Shown here one piece after another: positions 7,694 through 56,560 of a stretch of DNA of 64,000 bases (positions within the stretch are counted from its first letter, which is position 1; the number at the start of each line of letters is the position of its first letter). The stretch lies in NCBI GenBank assembly GCA_017983635.1, contig JAGOBA010000001.1, positions 310,001 to 374,000 of the forward strand. The letters are read 5' to 3'. A model generated the notes under the pieces. That model did not search any database. It saw nothing but the letters and a program-made list of their open reading frames with translations, and was not told the DNA's origin. Made by a program: the position numbers and the translations under genes. This DNA comes from Alphaproteobacteria bacterium (GTDB lineage Bacteria; Pseudomonadota; Alphaproteobacteria; Micropepsales; Micropepsaceae).

Positions 7694-9499
7694 ATGGGCG
7701 CACCGCTGATCCAACTGCAAGACATTCAATTGACCTTTGGGGGTGCGCCGCTTCTCCAGGGAGCGGACTTGGTCGTGTCGGAAGGCGACCGGGTCTGCCT
7801 TGTGGGGCGGAACGGATCGGGCAAGTCGACGCTGCTCAAAATTGCGGCGGGGCTGGTCGAGGCGGATCGCGGGACGCGCGCGGCTGCGCCATCGGCGACG
7901 ATCCGCTACCTGCCGCAGGAGCCAGACCTCTCTGGATTTGCCACCACGTTGACGTTCGTCGAGGCGGGGCTCGCGCCCGGTGACGATCCCTACCGGGCGC
8001 AGTACTTGCTCGAATGTCTGGGGATGACCGGCGGGGAGGCGACGGACCGCCTTTCGGGCGGCGAGGCGCGCCGGGCGGCGTTAGCGCGCGTGCTGGCGCC
8101 GGCGCCCGACATTTTGCTGTTGGACGAGCCGACGAACCATCTCGATCTGCCGGCGATCGAGTGGCTGGAGAGCGAACTCAATTCGCTGCGGTCAGCGATG
8201 GTGTTGATCAGTCACGACCGGCGATTCCTGGAGCGGCTGTCGCGAGCGACGGTGTGGCTCGACCGCGGGCAGACGCGGCGGCTGGAGCAGGGGTTCAGCG
8301 GCTTCGAAGCGTGGCGCGATCAGGTGCTGGAGCAGGAAGAGTTGGAGCAGCACAAGCTCGACCGGCGCATAGTGATGGAAGAGCACTGGGTCCGTTACGG
8401 CGTGACGGCGCGGCGCAAGCGCAACGTCGGACGCATGGCGCGGCTTGCCGATTTGCGGCGGCAGCGGCGCGAGGCGCCCCGCGTGACGGGGGCGGTAAAG
8501 CTTGCGGCGAGCGAGGGCGAGACCTCCGGCGCGGTGGTGATTGAGGCGAAACGAATTGGGAAGGCGTACGGCGAGCTTACCGTCGTCAACGACTTCTCGA
8601 TGCGGATCATGCGCGGGGATCGCGTCGGGATCGTCGGACCGAACGGCGCCGGCAAGACGACATTGATCAATCTTCTCACTGGTCGCATGACGCCGGATTC
8701 GGGCGAAGTGAAACTCGGTACGAACTTGCAGATGCATATGCTCGATCAACGGCGCGAAACGTTGACCGGCGACGTGAGCGTGAAGGACTTCCTGACCGGC
8801 GGGCACGGCGAGACGCTCAGCGTGAACGGCACGGTTCGGCACTATGCGTCCTACATGAAGGATTTTCTGTTCACGCCGGATCAGGCGCGCACGCCAGTGC
8901 GCGTGCTATCGGGCGGGGAGCGCGGGCGGCTGGTGCTGGCGAAGGCACTGGCGGCGCCGTCGAACCTGTTGGTACTCGACGAGCCGACGAACGACCTCGA
9001 CTTGGAAACGCTCGATCTGTTGCAGGAGATGTTGGCCGACTATCCGGGGACCGCGATCATCGTCAGCCACGATCGAGACTTCTTGGATCGGGTGGCGACG
9101 TCGGTTCTGATGGCGGAAGGCAACGGCAAGTTCGTCGAGTATGCGGGCGGCTACTCCGACATGGTGGCGCAGCGCGGCGCCGGCGTAAGCGCGAAGGCGC
9201 GCGAGGTCACAAAGCCGGTGAAGGCGGCCCCTGCCCCGCGCGCTGCTTCAACAAGCGAGCGGCGCAAGTTGAGCTTCAAAGACAAGCACGCGCTAGAAAC
9301 GTTACCCGCGCGGATCGATGCGCTTGGCGCTGAGATCGCGACGCTGCGCGAGAAGCTGGCCGATGAAAGCTTCTACGCGCGCGATCCGAACGGGTTCGCC
9401 ACAACCGCGAACAAGCTCACCGCGCTTGAAGGCGAACTCGCGGTGAGCGAGGAGCGCTGGCTGGAGCTTGAGATGCTGCGTGAGGAGATTGAGGGCTGA
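7694..9499 (+). CDS. ABC-F family ATPase, Uup-like
   Basis: 601 residues, two fused ABC ATPase domains and no membrane part. First domain: Walker A GRNGSGKST, signature LSGGEARRAAL, Walker B LLLDEPTNHLDL. Second domain: GPNGAGKTT, LSGGERGRLVLA, LLVLDEPTNDLDLETL. The acidic charged linker between domains fits ABC-F proteins, and a C-terminal basic then coiled-coil segment (from about 515, with RKLSFKDKHALETLPARI) is the Uup hallmark. ABC-F proteins act on ribosomes, and Uup has been linked to ribosome function and DNA structures. The frame is open from 7598, but the ATG at 7694 gives the normal domain start APLIQLQDIQLTFG. Confidence 0.9.
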   Translation: MGAPLIQLQDIQLTFGGAPLLQGADLVVSEGDRVCLVGRNGSGKSTLLKIAAGLVEADRGTRAAAPSATIRYLPQEPDLSGFATTLTFVEAGLAPGDDPYRAQYLLECLGMTGGEATDRLSGGEARRAALARVLAPAPDILLLDEPTNHLDLPAIEWLESELNSLRSAMVLISHDRRFLERLSRATVWLDRGQTRRLEQGFSGFEAWRDQVLEQEELEQHKLDRRIVMEEHWVRYGVTARRKRNVGRMARLADLRRQRREAPRVTGAVKLAASEGETSGAVVIEAKRIGKAYGELTVVNDFSMRIMRGDRVGIVGPNGAGKTTLINLLTGRMTPDSGEVKLGTNLQMHMLDQRRETLTGDVSVKDFLTGGHGETLSVNGTVRHYASYMKDFLFTPDQARTPVRVLSGGERGRLVLAKALAAPSNLLVLDEPTNDLDLETLDLLQEMLADYPGTAIIVSHDRDFLDRVATSVLMAEGNGKFVEYAGGYSDMVAQRGAGVSAKAREVTKPVKAAPAPRAASTSERRKLSFKDKHALETLPARIDALGAEIATLREKLADESFYARDPNGFATTANKLTALEGELAVSEERWLELEMLREEIEG

Positions 9500-35087: not shown

Positions 35088-35237
35088 ACGATGAAACGTC
35101 TTTAATCTTTTGATTCCATTATGAATTTGCCATCCGCCGCTCAGGCGTAGTATGGCAGTGCGTGGCCTGGGGACCATCTGTACAGTCGAACCCGCTTTGT
35201 TCAAAACGCCAACCGTGGCGTGTGAGCCCGTTTGCTG

Positions 35238-36254
35238 ATGTATGACCCCTATTCAGTTCTCGGTCTTCCGCGGTCGGCGACCGACGACGACATCAAGCAA
35301 GCGTTCCGCGCGCTGGCGAAACGCTTCCACCCTGATACGCCCGAAGGCGCCTCCGACAAAGGGCGCCGGTTCCGCGACCTCTCCATCGCGTATGAGATCC
35401 TGGGCGATGCCCGGAAGCGGCGATCGTACGATCGTGGCGAGATCGACGCGCATGGCAATCCGAAGCCCGGCTACAAACCGCCGCCGGAGCCGGAGCCCGA
35501 ATTCGAACTCGCGCAAGAGCACGTGGACGCCGGCGCGAAGAAGGCGAACGGCGCGCATGTCAGCGGCGAGAGCACGAGTGCGGGCTTCCGCAACGCGTTC
35601 GAGCGCGCGTTCGGCGTGGGCTCCGCAAACGAAAAGAAGAGCCGCGTCGAGGATTTGTTTTCGGAGTTCTTCGGCGACCGCTCGTCCGGCCGCAAGAAGC
35701 CTTCGCCGGGCAAGGGACTCGACAGCCACTACGATTTGGCAATCACGTTTGAGGAAGCGGCGCTTGGCGGCACGCGGCGGGTGAAGCTGCCGGGCGGCAA
35801 GCGCTTCGACGTGAAGGTGCCGATCGGTGTGCGCGAAGGGCAGACGATCCGCCTGCGCGGCTTGGGCGAACCCGGCGTTACGGGCGGTTCGACCGGCGAC
35901 GCGCTGATCACAATCACGATCGAGCCGCATCCCTACTTCCGGCGCGAGGGGCGCGACATTCATTTGGACTTGCCCATCACGCTCGCCGAAGCGCTGCACG
36001 GCGCGAAGGTGCAGGTGCCCACGTTGCAAGGCCACGTCACGATGGTGGTGCCGGCCGGTGCGAACGCGGGGCAGGTGTTCCGCTTGAAGGGCAAAGGCAT
36101 TCCCGGTGCAGGCCCGCTGCAAGCCGGCGGCGATCAACTGGTGACGCTGCAGATCGTGCTGCCGGATCAGACGGACCAGAACCTCAGCGATATCGTGAAG
36201 CGCTGGGAAGCGGCGCACCCGTACGACCCGCGGAAGAAGTTTAGCGGGGCGTGA
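35238..36254 (+). CDS. DnaJ-like (CbpA-type) Hsp40 co-chaperone
   Basis: 338 residues from the ATG at 35238; a TTG two codons earlier is possible. The J-domain (1-65) has the HPD tripeptide in AKRFHPDTPEGASDKG. There is no zinc-finger domain, so it is a class B protein like CbpA. A charged linker (about 75-160) leads to the two beta-sandwich C-terminal domains (DLAITFEEAALGG, LPGGKRFDVKVPIGVREGQT, DLPITLAEALHGAKVQVPTL). It stimulates DnaK. The last 177 bases recur almost intact at 37483-37659. Confidence 0.93.
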   Translation: MYDPYSVLGLPRSATDDDIKQAFRALAKRFHPDTPEGASDKGRRFRDLSIAYEILGDARKRRSYDRGEIDAHGNPKPGYKPPPEPEPEFELAQEHVDAGAKKANGAHVSGESTSAGFRNAFERAFGVGSANEKKSRVEDLFSEFFGDRSSGRKKPSPGKGLDSHYDLAITFEEAALGGTRRVKLPGGKRFDVKVPIGVREGQTIRLRGLGEPGVTGGSTGDALITITIEPHPYFRREGRDIHLDLPITLAEALHGAKVQVPTLQGHVTMVVPAGANAGQVFRLKGKGIPGAGPLQAGGDQLVTLQIVLPDQTDQNLSDIVKRWEAAHPYDPRKKFSGA

Positions 36255-36255
36255 T

Positions 36256-36348
36256 GCCTGGGAGCGCCGGCATCCTGCCGGCCCTTTCTTTCTTGTTTCG
36301 TGAGGCGCACCCGCTGCAAGGGCCGGCAAGATGCCGGCGCTCCCAGGC
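36256..36348. repeat. Long palindrome of the 'GGAGCGCCGGCAT' type
   Basis: 31-base arms (36256-36286 and 36318-36348) are inverse copies with one mismatch, separated by 31 bases. It begins one base after the dnaJ-like stop. Each arm contains its own smaller palindrome (GCCGGCATCCTGCCGGC). Translated, such repeats give the RMPALPG-type peptides seen in spurious ORFs of many genomes. It could act as a terminator. Confidence 0.8.
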
Positions 36349-36422
36349 GAGGTCATTCTTGATTCGCCTCGGATCAATCAGAAACTTTAAGTGTCCCCGT
36401 AACTTGTCTTGAGAAACCCGCC

Positions 36423-36878
36423 ATGCCAAAGATCGACGTCGCCGCCGTGCCGGAACGCAAAGGCTCCGGCTATCCGCCGCCGTTCGACGCGCCGTGTGCC
36501 GAGCGCGTGCGGCAGCGGTTGGGGAATGCCGGTGGGCTCTTAGACTTCGGCGTCAATTTGATGCGGTTGCCGCCGGGGAGTTGGTCGAGCCAGCGGCATT
36601 GGCACTCGCACGAGGACGAGTTCGTCTATGTGCTCGAAGGCGAGCTGACGTTGGTCGAGGACGGCGGCGAGACAGTGCTGCGCGCGGGCGATTGCGCGGC
36701 GTTTCCCAAAGGCACCGGCGACGGGCATCACTTGATCAACAAGTCGGGCGCGATGGCGCTCTATCTCGAAGTGGGCTCACGCGCACGTGCGGACGTGACC
36801 ACCTGCTCCGACATCGACATGATGAGCAGCAATGCGGATGGCCGGTTCGTGCGGAAGGACGGGAGCGTGCTCCCTTAG
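36423..36878 (+). CDS. Cupin domain protein
   Basis: 151 residues with one cupin barrel. Metal-binding motif 1 is HWHSHEDEFVYVLEGELTL (three His and a Glu) and motif 2 is FPKGTGDGHHLIN. This resembles small cupins annotated as sugar isomerase- or auxin-binding-like. Function unknown. It sits alone between the dnaJ-like gene and a second copy of that gene's 3' end, so it may have arrived with the duplication. Confidence 0.88.
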   Translation: MPKIDVAAVPERKGSGYPPPFDAPCAERVRQRLGNAGGLLDFGVNLMRLPPGSWSSQRHWHSHEDEFVYVLEGELTLVEDGGETVLRAGDCAAFPKGTGDGHHLINKSGAMALYLEVGSRARADVTTCSDIDMMSSNADGRFVRKDGSVLP

Positions 36879-37142
36879 GACGCCCCCGCACGCATCGAGG
36901 TTGTCGCGTGTCCCAATCGTTTCCCGCGCGCGCTTACGCCGCCCTCCCCGCGATCACGGCGCGGGCCAAGAGGGGGGATCGGGTCAAAAATTTGAGCGAA
37001 CAACCCCTTGTACCCGGAAGTTAGGTTGAGAAAACGCCGTCGAACGCGGACGCTCAGAGTCATGTGCGACCTACAGTCATCGCTACAGATGGCATGGCGC
37101 TGGACCATCACCGCAAGGGAGACGCAATCCAATCCGTATCAT

Positions 37143-37204
37143 CCGTTACACGACTGAAATCCGCGAAATTCTCCGTTCGCGATGTGTAACAACGGCGTTT
37201 TTTT
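37143..37204 (+). terminator. Orphan terminator-like nested hairpin with T7
   Basis: Outer arms GTTACAC (37145-37151) and GTGTAAC (37184-37190), inner arms CGCGAA (37162-37167) and TTCGCG (37176-37181), then AACGGCG and seven T (37198-37204). No protein gene ends nearby on this strand; the cupin stop is 265 bases upstream. It may end a small RNA or a long cupin 3' UTR. Confidence 0.5.
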
Positions 37205-37293
37205 GTCACGGATCGCTCGCCCAAACGGCGGCTCGCGGGCCACGCCCTTCGCGCATACGTTGTAGCCCCGCGCATACTTCACCCCAAACCTCA

Positions 37294-37318
37294 CCGGTCT
37301 TTCGACCGGGGCATTTTT
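37294..37318 (+). terminator. Second orphan terminator-like hairpin
   Basis: Stem CCGGTC / GACCGG with loop TTTC, followed by GGCA and five T (37314-37318). It lies 90 bases after the previous hairpin, with no gene between them. Confidence 0.5.
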
Positions 37319-37482
37319 CCTACTCACATTGTCAACGTGCAGCCGCGAGCGCGGCCAGAAGGGGCGCCCGGGAATCTGGAACAATAGTGGAACATCTAGA
37401 TGTGAAAGTCAAGCAAGTTCGCCGCCGAGCGTCGCGGGCAAGGGGAATAGGTATAGTGCCCATAGTGCCCCCGTATTCGTAT

Positions 37483-37659
37483 TTCCGCTTGAAGGGCAAA
37501 GGCATTCCCGGTGCAGGCCCGCTGCAGGCCGGCGGCGATCAGCTGGTGACGCTGCAGATCGTGCTGCCGGATCAGACGGATCAGAACCTCAGCGATATCG
37601 TGAAGCGCTGGGAAGCGCCGCATCCGTACGACCCGCGGAAGAAGTTTAGCGGGGCGTGA
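37483..37659 (+). pseudogene. Duplicated 3' end of the dnaJ-like gene
   Basis: The 177 bases encode the same last 58 residues as the intact dnaJ-like gene (36078-36254), with five base differences. Four are silent third-position changes (CAA/CAG twice, GAC/GAT, CAC/CAT) and one changes Ala to Pro. The match begins at the Phe-Arg-Leu-Lys codons and ends at the stop. There is no J-domain or start of its own, though an open frame from 37387 runs into it. The pattern fits an attachment-site-type duplication or a remnant of a second dnaJ gene. Confidence 0.85.
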
Positions 37660-37865
37660 GGCGCGTGTTCGCGCGGAAGCGGCGATTGACCTTGTACACG
37701 TGCCCAAGGGTCGGCCGCCTCCGCCGGCTGCCCGAAAGAACAGTTCGAATATTTGACGAATAGAGTATGTCGCACCCGTGACAATTGTTATCCGCGTCCA
37801 TATATAACCCGCGAAATCGAGTTCGCCTTGCATCCCGTCTTCGCAACGATTTTTGGGGAGGAGCA

Positions 37866-38633
37866 ATGTCTCGGTTGTTGGGCTCGTGGCGGGGACTCCG
37901 CTGGCTAGCCTTTTTGTTCTCGCTTGGTCTCGACGCTTATGTCTTTCACATTTCTGACCCGTTCACGCCCCTCAGCTTTATGACGAGCGGAATTGCGGCG
38001 GCGATCCTGTTCTTTCTGTTTCTGGAAATTGCGCGCGCCATGAAAGGGCGCGGCCGCATCCGTCAGGCGCTCGACGAGCATGAGCGCGTAACCTATCAGG
38101 TCGGCCGTCACGTGCTGGCGCTGTTGCGGAAGATCCGCAAAAGCCCGCTCGCCTACAACGCGATCTGGTTTCCGGTTTGGATCGCGATCTTCGCGACGGG
38201 TGTGATCAAGTGGTTTCTGTTCAAAGAGTTCTTCGACGCGCCACCGGAGTTCGGTTTGCCTTGGTTGACCCTGGCTCAGTATGCGTGTGCGGGGTATCTG
38301 CCGTTGCTGATCGCGCTGCCGTTCATTCTTGAACACGTGAGCGAGTGGACGAGCCATCAGTACGTGCTCGCCGTCGATACGAAATCTCACGATCCGCGCT
38401 TGCTCATTCATTCGGGCGTGTTCGACTACGACCTGGAGACTGTGTCCATCGAGCGTACCGTGACGACGCATGTATTTCAGACCTGGTGGCAGGCGATGAT
38501 CGGCATCGGCAACGTAGAGCTGCGCGAAACCGCTGGTGGCGAAGGCGAGACGCTGATCGATGTGTGGAAGCCGCGGCTGCTTGAGAAGAAGATTCGCGGC
38601 GCCGTCAAAACATCACGGCGGCGCGGGGACTGA
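37866..38633 (+). CDS. Membrane protein with C-terminal PH-like domain, function unknown
   Basis: 255 residues from the ATG at 37866 behind GGGGAGGA. Four hydrophobic segments (LRWLAFLFSLGLDAYVF, GIAAAILFFLFLEIA, AIWFPVWIAIFATGVIKWFL and GYLPLLIALPFILEHV) alternate with a cytoplasmic charged helix. The C-terminal 80 residues (YVLAVDTKSHDPRLLIHSGV, DLETVSIERTVTTHVFQTWW, and GIGNVELRE) look like a bacterial PH domain of the YdbT/bPH2 kind. Role unknown. Confidence 0.75.
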   Translation: MSRLLGSWRGLRWLAFLFSLGLDAYVFHISDPFTPLSFMTSGIAAAILFFLFLEIARAMKGRGRIRQALDEHERVTYQVGRHVLALLRKIRKSPLAYNAIWFPVWIAIFATGVIKWFLFKEFFDAPPEFGLPWLTLAQYACAGYLPLLIALPFILEHVSEWTSHQYVLAVDTKSHDPRLLIHSGVFDYDLETVSIERTVTTHVFQTWWQAMIGIGNVELRETAGGEGETLIDVWKPRLLEKKIRGAVKTSRRRGD

Positions 38634-38729
38634 TGGCGCGATCCCCGGTCACTCGGCGGACGTCTCAGGCCTAGAAGTCCGACCCCCAAACCTATATCCC
38701 TACGCCCCACCGCAGGGGGAGAGCCATCA

Positions 38730-39530
38730 GTGGCGAAGGTGAAGCCTACCAGCAATCCGAAGCTAAAGCTTCATGGGTTCAACAATCTGACGAAGTCGTT
38801 GTCGTTCAATATCTACGACATCTGCTACGCGCGTTCGAAGGCGGAGAACCGGGAGTATATCGAGTATATCGACGAGGTTTACAACGCGAAGCGGTTGACC
38901 GCGATCCTGACGGAGGTTGCCGACATTATCGGCGCGCATATCTTGAACGTGGCCAAGCAGGATTACGATCCGCAGGGGGCGAGCGTCACGATGCTGATCT
39001 CCGAGGGCCACGATGACGATCACTCCACGCCGAAAAAGGCGTCCGTCGTCGGCCACTTGGACAAGAGCCACATCACGGTGCACACCTATCCGGAGACGCA
39101 TCCGGATGCCGGTGTCAGCACCTTTCGCGCCGATATCGATGTCAGCACCTGCGGCCGGATCTCGCCCCTGAAAGCGCTGAACTTTCTCATCGAGAGTTTC
39201 GAGTCCGACATCGTGGTCATGGACTATCGCGTGCGCGGCTTCACGCGCAACGTGCGCGGCATGAAGCACTTCATCGACCACACGATCGACTCGATCCAAA
39301 ACTTCATCTCGCCGGGCATCCAGGACCGCTATGACATGGTCGACGTGAACGTCTACCAAGAGAGCATCTTCCACACCAAGATGCGGCTGAAGGAGCTGGA
39401 CCTCGACACGTATCTGTTCGGTGCCGGCGAGGCGGACCTAACGGCGCGCGAAGCGAAGCTCATCCGTGGGCGCGTCAATCATGAGATTAGCGAGATTTTC
39501 TACGGGCGGAATATTCAGCGCGGGGCTTAG
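38730..39530 (+). CDS. speD: S-adenosylmethionine decarboxylase proenzyme (E. coli type)
   Basis: 266 residues from a GTG at 38730 with AGGGGGA upstream. Pyruvoyl enzyme for spermidine synthesis. Self-cleavage and pyruvoyl serine lie in [20 protein letters not shown]. Strongly conserved blocks are [40 protein letters not shown] and [20 protein letters not shown], and the terminus FYGRNIQ matches E. coli SpeD. Decarboxylated SAM would be used by a spermidine synthase not seen here. Confidence 0.96.
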
Positions 39531-39559
39531 TGTGTGACTCGTTCGGAGATGCTTGCGCT

Positions 39560-39701
39560 GCCCCCCTCCCGTGCAGCCGCTTCGCGGCGCAGGTACTCCC
39601 CCGAGCTTCGCTCAGGGGAGACAAATTAAAATCGTTGTCTCCCCCAAAGTGAAACTTTGGGGGAGTGGGTGCGCAACGTAGTTGCTGCACTCGAGGGGGG
39701 C
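39560..39701. repeat. Nested palindromic (cruciform) repeat, family C
   Basis: Outer arms GCCCCCCTCCCGTGCAGC and its near-inverse close the element. Inside are a hairpin CTCCCCCGAGC..GCTCAGGGGAG, a palindrome GGGGAGACAA-N10-TTGTCTCCCC, and a second hairpin CTCCCCCAAAGT..ACTTTGGGGGAG. It fills the gap after speD. A shorter relative (CCGAGC..GCTCGGGGGAGACAA) lies at 45112. Confidence 0.75.
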
Positions 39702-39784
39702 GGCTCCCACTTGCGGCGCGGTGGCGCGTTTGAATGTTCGTGTCGTCGCTGGCGGTATTCGCTGCGGCGCGATAGCTTTGGCCG

Positions 39785-40891
39785 ATGAGCGACAAAGACA
39801 TCGAACGATTGGCGGCGCAGTTGCTGCACCATCATGGGGCGGGGCTTCGGCCGGGGGATTCCGTGGTGCCGGGGATATGGCCGGCGGCCGTGTTTCATCT
39901 GCCGGGCGATCCGGCGAAGGCGCCTTATGTTTATGGGCGGTATCACAACCCGAGTTGGGATCCGTTGGAGGCGGCGCTCGGCACGCTTGAGGGGGCGGAG
40001 GCGCTGATCTTTCCGTCCGGCATGGCCGCCATTGCGGCGGTGATGTTCACGACCGTTCGGGCCGGCGACCGGGTGCTGGTGCCGTCGGACGGCTATTTCG
40101 CGGTGCGTGCGCTGGCGGAGCAGTTCTTGGCGCCGCTCGGTGCCATCGTCGAGATGCGGCCGACGGCGCGAATGCTTGAGGGCGGGTTCGACGGATTTCG
40201 GTTGGTGCATGTCGAGACACCATCGAACCCGGGGCTCGACGTTTGCGACTTGCAGGAAGCGGCGGCGCTCGCGAAGGCGGCCGGCGCGATCCTCTGCGTC
40301 GACAACACGACGATGACGGCGTTGGGGCAGCGGCCGTTAGAACTTGGCGCGGACATCGTCGTTTGCTCGGACACGAAGGCGGTGAACGGGCACTCCGATG
40401 CGCTACTCGGCCATGTCGCGACGCGGCGCGGCGATCTGATGACGCGGCTTCGGGACTGGCGGAAGTTCTCGGGAACGATCCCCGGCCCGTTCGATGCCTG
40501 GCTGGTGTTCCGCGGGTTGGAGACGTTGGAGGTGCGCTACGCGCGCATGTGCGCGACGGCAGCGGTGATCGCTCCGCGATTGGCCGAGCACAAGAATGTT
40601 CGCGCGGTGCGCTTTCCGGGGTTGGCCAACGATCCGGCGCATGCGGTTGCGCGGCGTCAGATGACGGGCTTTGGGCACATGATCTCGCTGACCCTGGCCG
40701 ATGGAGGGACCGCGGAGAAATTCATTACGCAGTGTTCCTTTATTCAGCCGTCGACGAGTTTTGGGGGCGTGAGGACGTGTGCGGAGCGGCGCGCGCGGTG
40801 GGGGGATCAGGTGCCGGAGGGCTTCGTTAGACTCTCGATTGGACTGGAACCGGCCGACGCCCTGTGGGAGTCGATGGCAGCCGCGCTCTGA
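39785..40891 (+). CDS. Cys/Met metabolism PLP-dependent enzyme (cystathionine gamma-synthase/lyase type)
   Basis: 368 residues, fold type I. Conserved elements are VYGRYHNPSWDPLEAALGTL, then GAEALIFPSGMAAIAAV, the Asp in ILCVDNTTMTALG, and the PLP-lysine region ADIVVCSDTKAVNGHSDALLG (Lys in DTKAVNGH). The C-terminus has SFGGVRTCAERRARWG and PEGFVRLSIGLEPADAL. It probably catalyses a beta- or gamma-elimination or replacement on a sulfur amino acid; lyase versus synthase cannot be decided. Slightly shorter than typical (about 380-400). Confidence 0.88.
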   Translation: MSDKDIERLAAQLLHHHGAGLRPGDSVVPGIWPAAVFHLPGDPAKAPYVYGRYHNPSWDPLEAALGTLEGAEALIFPSGMAAIAAVMFTTVRAGDRVLVPSDGYFAVRALAEQFLAPLGAIVEMRPTARMLEGGFDGFRLVHVETPSNPGLDVCDLQEAAALAKAAGAILCVDNTTMTALGQRPLELGADIVVCSDTKAVNGHSDALLGHVATRRGDLMTRLRDWRKFSGTIPGPFDAWLVFRGLETLEVRYARMCATAAVIAPRLAEHKNVRAVRFPGLANDPAHAVARRQMTGFGHMISLTLADGGTAEKFITQCSFIQPSTSFGGVRTCAERRARWGDQVPEGFVRLSIGLEPADALWESMAAAL

Positions 40892-46778: not shown

Positions 46779-46809
46779 GGCCTGTTTGGCTGGGCTGGGG
46801 TCGTGGTAA

Positions 46810-47046
46810 TTCAGCTTTTCACCACCAAGACACCAAGAACCACCAAGGTTCACCAAGGAGATTTTTTCACACAATGAAACAATGACACAATGGGAGCCAC
46901 TCTTTGGCGCGAAGCGCCGATAAGAGTCTGATTGCGCGCTGCGCGCGCGGGTGACCATTCATTGTGTCATTGTTTCATTGTGTGAGTCATTCTTCCTTCT
47001 TGGTGAACCTTGGTGGTTCTTGGTGTCTTGGTGGTGAAAAGCTGAA
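46810..47046. repeat. Compound inverted-repeat element B
   Basis: Arms 46810-46892 and 46960-47046 are inverse copies with few changes. Each arm has CACCAAG-type tandem units and, after TTTTTTCACAC, ACAATG-type units. The core carries GGCGC-TTC-GCGCC and GCGCGC small hairpins and GGTGACCATTC. On the minus strand this is the same order as element A at 25265, with different arm units. It fills the gap between two convergent genes. Confidence 0.85.
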
Positions 47047-47077
47047 TCGCCAACTCACCGGCCGAGACGAGTAAGCT

Positions 47078-56356: not shown

Positions 56357-56440
56357 TCGATGGTCCCACAGCGGTCCGTTTGAGCGCGGTCTATAATGGT
56401 TTGGGCGGGGTTGGTCGAGCGTTTCGGCCACCCTCTTAGG

Positions 56441-56528
56441 TGTCATGGTCCGCGCAGGCGGACCACCCACGACTTTTCCCCCAGCGCACACAGAAATCGT
56501 GGGTGGTCCGCCTGCGCGGACCATGACA
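56441..56528. repeat. Perfect 32-bp-arm palindrome
   Basis: Arms at 56441-56472 and 56497-56528 are perfect inverse copies, separated by 24 bases. Each contains GGTCCGC-GCAG-GCGGACC. It shares outer GTCATGG and inner CCACCCA with the 53121 element but differs in the middle. It lies between divergent xseB and a hydrolase gene. Confidence 0.9.
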
Positions 56529-56560
56529 CTTTGAAGGGGGGCTAGACAGTCGAGGCAGTC

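Follow-up and report, generated by a model that had tools for sequence, protein, structure and literature searches.

An orphan dnaJ 3' end downstream of dnaJ in an alphaproteobacterial genome, most likely a scar of recombination between strains

The stretch of DNA analysed here, called the window (64 kb), belongs to a 4.59-Mb alphaproteobacterial genome (G000) and carries a complete dnaJ/CbpA-like gene. The native downstream neighbour of this gene in the genus is a cystathionine gamma-lyase gene, which in the window lies 3,530 bp beyond the dnaJ stop codon. The region between the two genes holds several unrelated blocks, among them a second copy of the 3' end of dnaJ. From left to right, these are the REP-like palindrome, the cupin gene, two dispersed repeats, the dnaJ 3' end, a putative membrane-protein gene (memb), speD and a palindromic repeat, after which the lyase gene follows. 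All genes of the insert are oriented like dnaJ. The features of the locus are as follows.

35241..36254, plus strand: complete dnaJ/CbpA-like gene with J domain and DnaJ C-terminal domain (Pfam PF00226, PF01556); the order pdxH-sel1-dnaJ is kept in relatives; the first listed start of the open reading frame is a TTG at 35232
36078..36254, plus strand: copy 1 of the repeat, the 3' end of the intact dnaJ
36256..36348, no strand: REP-like palindrome directly 3' of the dnaJ stop, from a dispersed family found at about 20 places in the genome
36423..36878, plus strand: cupin gene (Pfam PF07883), with a homology block at about 36413-36864
36972..37037, no strand: dispersed repeat B, GGTCAAAAATTTGAGC...CCCTTGTACCCGGAAGTTAGGTTGAGAAAACG, with many copies in this genome and in the congeners G004 and G007
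37290..37414, no strand: dispersed module C of about 110 bp, with a hairpin, a conserved GCAGCCGCGAGCG stretch and GAACN7GAAC
37483..37659, plus strand: copy 2 of the repeat, an orphan dnaJ 3' end, 97% identical, with the species-specific CCG codon and one Ala-to-Pro change
37732..38638, plus strand: memb block, comprising the putative membrane-protein gene (37866-38633) and its upstream region; relocated relative to congeners
38646..39532, plus strand: speD block, comprising the S-adenosylmethionine decarboxylase gene (38730-39530; TIGR03331) and its upstream region; relocated relative to G004
39557..39704, no strand: second palindromic repeat, upstream of the native lyase gene
39785..40891, plus strand: cystathionine gamma-lyase gene (NF005758)

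The two copies of the direct repeat (36078-36254 and 37483-37659) have a spacing of 1405 and are identical at 172 of 177 bases. The left edge of the similarity is sharp, at TTCCGC, and the right edge is the TGA stop codon in both copies. The differences, given as copy 1/copy 2, are CAA/CAG, CAA/CAG, GAC/GAT, GCG/CCG (Ala to Pro) and CAC/CAT, four of the five being silent. This confirms what the first-pass annotation had described, namely a dnaJ end recurring with the same stop and mostly silent differences. In a whole-genome search, the repeat was found at these two places only, and the E-value of the second copy (3e-81) excludes a chance match. It is the longest among the non-palindromic repeats of the window. 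A direct repeat of 77% identity and about 140 bp is present elsewhere in the window (43685-43825/44512-44652). No dnaJ similarity was found directly upstream of 37483. The possibility that copy 2 forms a functional small gene, in a frame with a GTG start (37387-37659), was considered and rejected: the frame has no Pfam or NCBIfam match, and only its DnaJ tail matches a PHROG (DnaJ-like proteins).

The gene content of the dnaJ-downstream gap is variable within the genus. Three congeners (G004, G005 and G008) lack the insert, an outcome of the comparison with relatives that the first-pass annotation had proposed; in them, dnaJ is followed after 32-40 bp without genes by the cystathionine-lyase gene. 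In a further congener, G007, the dnaJ-lyase gap measures about 0.24 kb and includes the C-terminal part of a DUF433 gene (L033, about 8042-8283), which implies that gene fragments also accumulate in the gap of a second species. G001 and G002 have thiC downstream of dnaJ, with a phosphatase gene in between in G001, and in most of the family the downstream gene is fabI. Relative to these genomes, the insert extends from 36255 to 39784. It is thus larger than the 1.2 kb originally assumed, and copy 2 of the repeat sits inside it, not at a border with native DNA.

The blocks between the two dnaJ ends are of mixed nature. The cupin gene is present there as annotated, and five other genomes carry its block by itself in unrelated surroundings. 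The palindrome after the dnaJ stop is likewise real, but as a dispersed REP-like repeat it is not the element-specific mark for which it had been taken. The two orphan terminators reported for this region are at chance level (3 terminator-like sites versus 1.9 +/- 1.5 in shuffled sequences). Dispersed repeat B was not detected in congeners other than G004 and G007. Module C has similar copies at G000:C18:10522 and G000:C32:39603 and is possibly a promoter or small-RNA repeat family. At L057 and L058, around 1501-1640, it abuts a TGTCTCA...TGAGACA module, which also occurs alone on contigs C17, C27, C21 and C14 of G000. The GAACN7GAAC motif of module C resembles an alphaproteobacterial LexA site; its frequency in the window is at chance, and it was rejected as a sign of an SOS-controlled element. 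Rfam returned nothing at gathering scores, and sub-threshold microRNA-precursor matches on the palindrome were dismissed as hairpin artefacts. Further long palindromic repeats lie at 46809-47047 and 56440-56529.

Two genes beyond copy 2 appear, by synteny, to belong elsewhere. The memb product is a membrane-like protein of 255 aa with no Pfam, NCBIfam or PHROG match, and no match to memb was found among plasmid records. Clear relatives occur in 3 of 10 congeners and weak ones in two more, with none in the other genomes searched. In G007 and G005, memb adjoins a GIY-YIG-type gene (recognised by motif, not by model); in the window, memb is cut off where this neighbour begins. The usual neighbours of memb are present at another place in this genome (G000:C14:38.3-44 kb), where memb is missing and part of its upstream region is left. 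In G004, speD lies downstream of a putative peptidoglycan-peptidase gene, and the matching neighbourhood in this genome (G000:C10:88-94 kb) is without speD. The home loci of this genome thus lack both genes. In the insert, the memb block meets the speD block at 38638/38646, and both edges are sharp. The high protein identity of both genes raised the possibility of a recent transfer from sampled congeners. This was discounted, as their divergence at four-fold sites is about that of core genes; identity to congeners at these sites lies inside the range of core genes or at its upper edge. A transfer from an unsampled lineage may nevertheless have occurred.

The duplication of the dnaJ end is confined to this genome within the sampled genus. 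A second dnaJ tail was found in none of the 10 congeners searched, and where dnaJ was recovered, it is single at the locus. Identity to the nearest dnaJ genes is about 75-80% at the protein level, compared with 97% between the two tails at the DNA level. Both tails have a CCG codon (in GAGPLQ) that is missing from every congener covering the site. This shared one-codon insertion indicates that the duplication is recent and arose within the species.

Comparison with the congeners places the two Gln changes (CAG to CAA) most simply in the functional copy; the Ala-to-Pro change is assigned to copy 2 on the same grounds, and the remaining two silent sites cannot be polarised in this way. If all five changes were neutral, the probability of at least four silent ones would be 0.014-0.03, which makes it probable that coding constraint acted while most of the divergence accumulated. 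Such a history would fit a pair of dnaJ alleles or substitutions acquired by the live gene. The first-pass annotation had explained the silent divergence by separate coding contexts, and this is supported: the pattern is unlikely for a purely neutral fragment and suits both ends having evolved in genes.

Copy 2 is most likely the scar of an imperfect recombination between strains and not the remains of a virus-like integrating element. We give about an even chance to a specific form of this reading, in which homology-facilitated illegitimate recombination (HFIR) placed one allele of the dnaJ-downstream gap behind another, head to tail. The species would have harboured the gap alleles dnaJ-REP-cupin and dnaJ-memb-speD-lyase. 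The DNA of one strain would have entered another, in a presumed direction of transfer, and paired by homology on one side. The other side would have been joined by illegitimate recombination at 37482/37483, which is 177 bp before the dnaJ stop of the second allele. The alleles would thereby have been stacked head to tail, with the second dnaJ kept only as its last 58 codons. With the stop codon marking the start of the variable gap, the similarity would extend no further. Stacking of this kind would account for the abrupt left edge of copy 2, its right edge at the stop, differences that are of strain level and mostly silent, and the shared orientation of the genes. The split of the tails within the species, the variable gap content among congeners and the origin of memb and speD at other loci likewise favour this reading. 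The junction at 37482/37483 is indeed abrupt and non-homologous, and homology to relatives is found on the dnaJ side. Events of the HFIR type are rare, with microhomology of 3-10 bp usually present at the junctions (PMC3240628); none is seen here on the one comparable side. The Ala-to-Pro and the two Gln codon changes could equally have followed a purely local duplication, which counts against HFIR.

The genome encodes Ku, which makes capture the main rival: several resident pieces of DNA would have been joined into a break within one genome by end-joining or a similar copy-and-join process, including a long target duplication from a filled-in staggered break. In this course of events, which we consider conceivable though rather unlikely, the dnaJ 3' end, memb and speD would have been copied into the gap, and the home copies of memb and speD lost later. 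The sharp abutment of the two blocks and their absence from the home loci fit capture, as does the upstream remnant at the memb home locus, which is what copying followed by loss would leave. The truncated gene in the G007 gap points the same way. Capture alone, however, leaves unexplained the coincidence of the end of the dnaJ piece with the stop codon, the single orientation of all pieces and the predominance of silent changes. The spacing of the copies would also allow a tandem duplication of 36078-37482 (about 1.4 kb) in which the remainder of the second unit was later deleted. This is nevertheless highly improbable, given that what follows copy 1, whether or not the REP is counted, has no similarity to the sequence that follows copy 2, and the deletion would have had to stop exactly at the stop codon. 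There is also a small chance that the locus is an assembly chimera, built from the reads of two strains that occurred together and differed in their gap allele; a gene end followed by a slightly different, abruptly starting second copy is also the product of a false join. Against this speak the good quality of the assembly (4.59 Mb in 34 contigs, completeness 100, contamination 0.39), the position of the join inside a 637-kb contig and the five differing sites, which are not those of a plain overlap.

Site-specific elements are expected to come with a recombinase, with reuse of the site in relatives and with a displaced 3' end that adjoins native DNA. The first-pass annotation had seen in the locus a possible eroded integration site: copy 1 would have arrived with the cupin block on an element, now decayed, that entered the dnaJ 3' end, and copy 2 would be the displaced native end. 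Part of the described pattern holds. The complete 3' end of dnaJ is indeed followed by a block of other DNA and then by another dnaJ 3' end, and it is plausible that an old 3' end was pushed aside by an insertion; an integrative element as the cause is not supported. Topology and size match those of e14 in icd, and both copies end at the stop codon with mostly silent differences. On the other hand, the block between the dnaJ ends, in which the cupin gene is the sole gene, contains no recombinase, phage or plasmid gene by Pfam, NCBIfam and PHROG; the lack of a recombinase had been correctly noted, and a decayed element could have lost it. No close match to the dnaJ tail exists among phage records or viral contigs, and plasmid records gave only J-domain or DnaJ genes of <60% identity, mostly rhizobial. 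The integrases expected next to the dnaJ 3' end in other genomes were not found at about 30 relatives' loci (tblastn, ORF reading, Pfam), and the window holds no tRNA or tmRNA target. Moreover, copy 2 is followed by the relocated memb and speD instead of the native lyase gene, which a displaced 3' end should adjoin, and the palindrome and the other non-coding parts are genome-wide repeats. Taken together, a decayed element is improbable. Two observations that would have spoken against it from another side were sought in vain: neither a complete second dnaJ nor a wide distribution of the arrangement was seen. Fainter still, behind all of these explanations, is the idea that single chromosomal genes, together with their upstream regions, are repeatedly gathered in one orientation at the dnaJ 3' end by an as yet unrecognised mechanism that needs no recombinase and copies the host 3' end as they enter.

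Read as stacked alleles, the locus is a recombination scar of an already known kind. It offers a clear and recent example of the erosion of bacterial gene order, in which a gap beside a conserved gene gathers relocated genes. It also illustrates that a gene-end duplicate resembling an integration scar can arise without an integrase, and it advises caution, as a duplicated 3' end alone is insufficient for calling an attachment site.

Parts of the locus recall several known systems. Like REP-like dispersed palindromes, the palindrome described here lies directly after a stop codon and has many dispersed copies, but it is one component only of the locus. The e14 prophage in E. coli icd leaves a duplicated 3' end of 163 bp (PMC6379469). 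The 3' end of a protein gene is duplicated in both cases, at nearly the same length and ending at the stop; here, however, integrase and phage genes are absent, the insert is not of element size, and the displaced end does not adjoin native DNA. The closest published anatomy is that of the Vibrio T6SS effector loci, where the old 3' end has come to lie downstream of a new version of the gene and of the gene following it, an arrangement attributed to HFIR (PMC5361080). A one-sided homologous, one-sided illegitimate event has been proposed to insert the new version (PMC5361080). The locus described here differs from these effector-immunity arrays and Rhs orphan 3' regions (PMC5361080) in that it involves a housekeeping-type chaperone, ends that are 97% identical, unrelated accessory genes downstream and a single scar. 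It shares with them the succession of an intact gene, its downstream gene, the orphan 3' end of another version and the downstream gene of that version, all without a recombinase.
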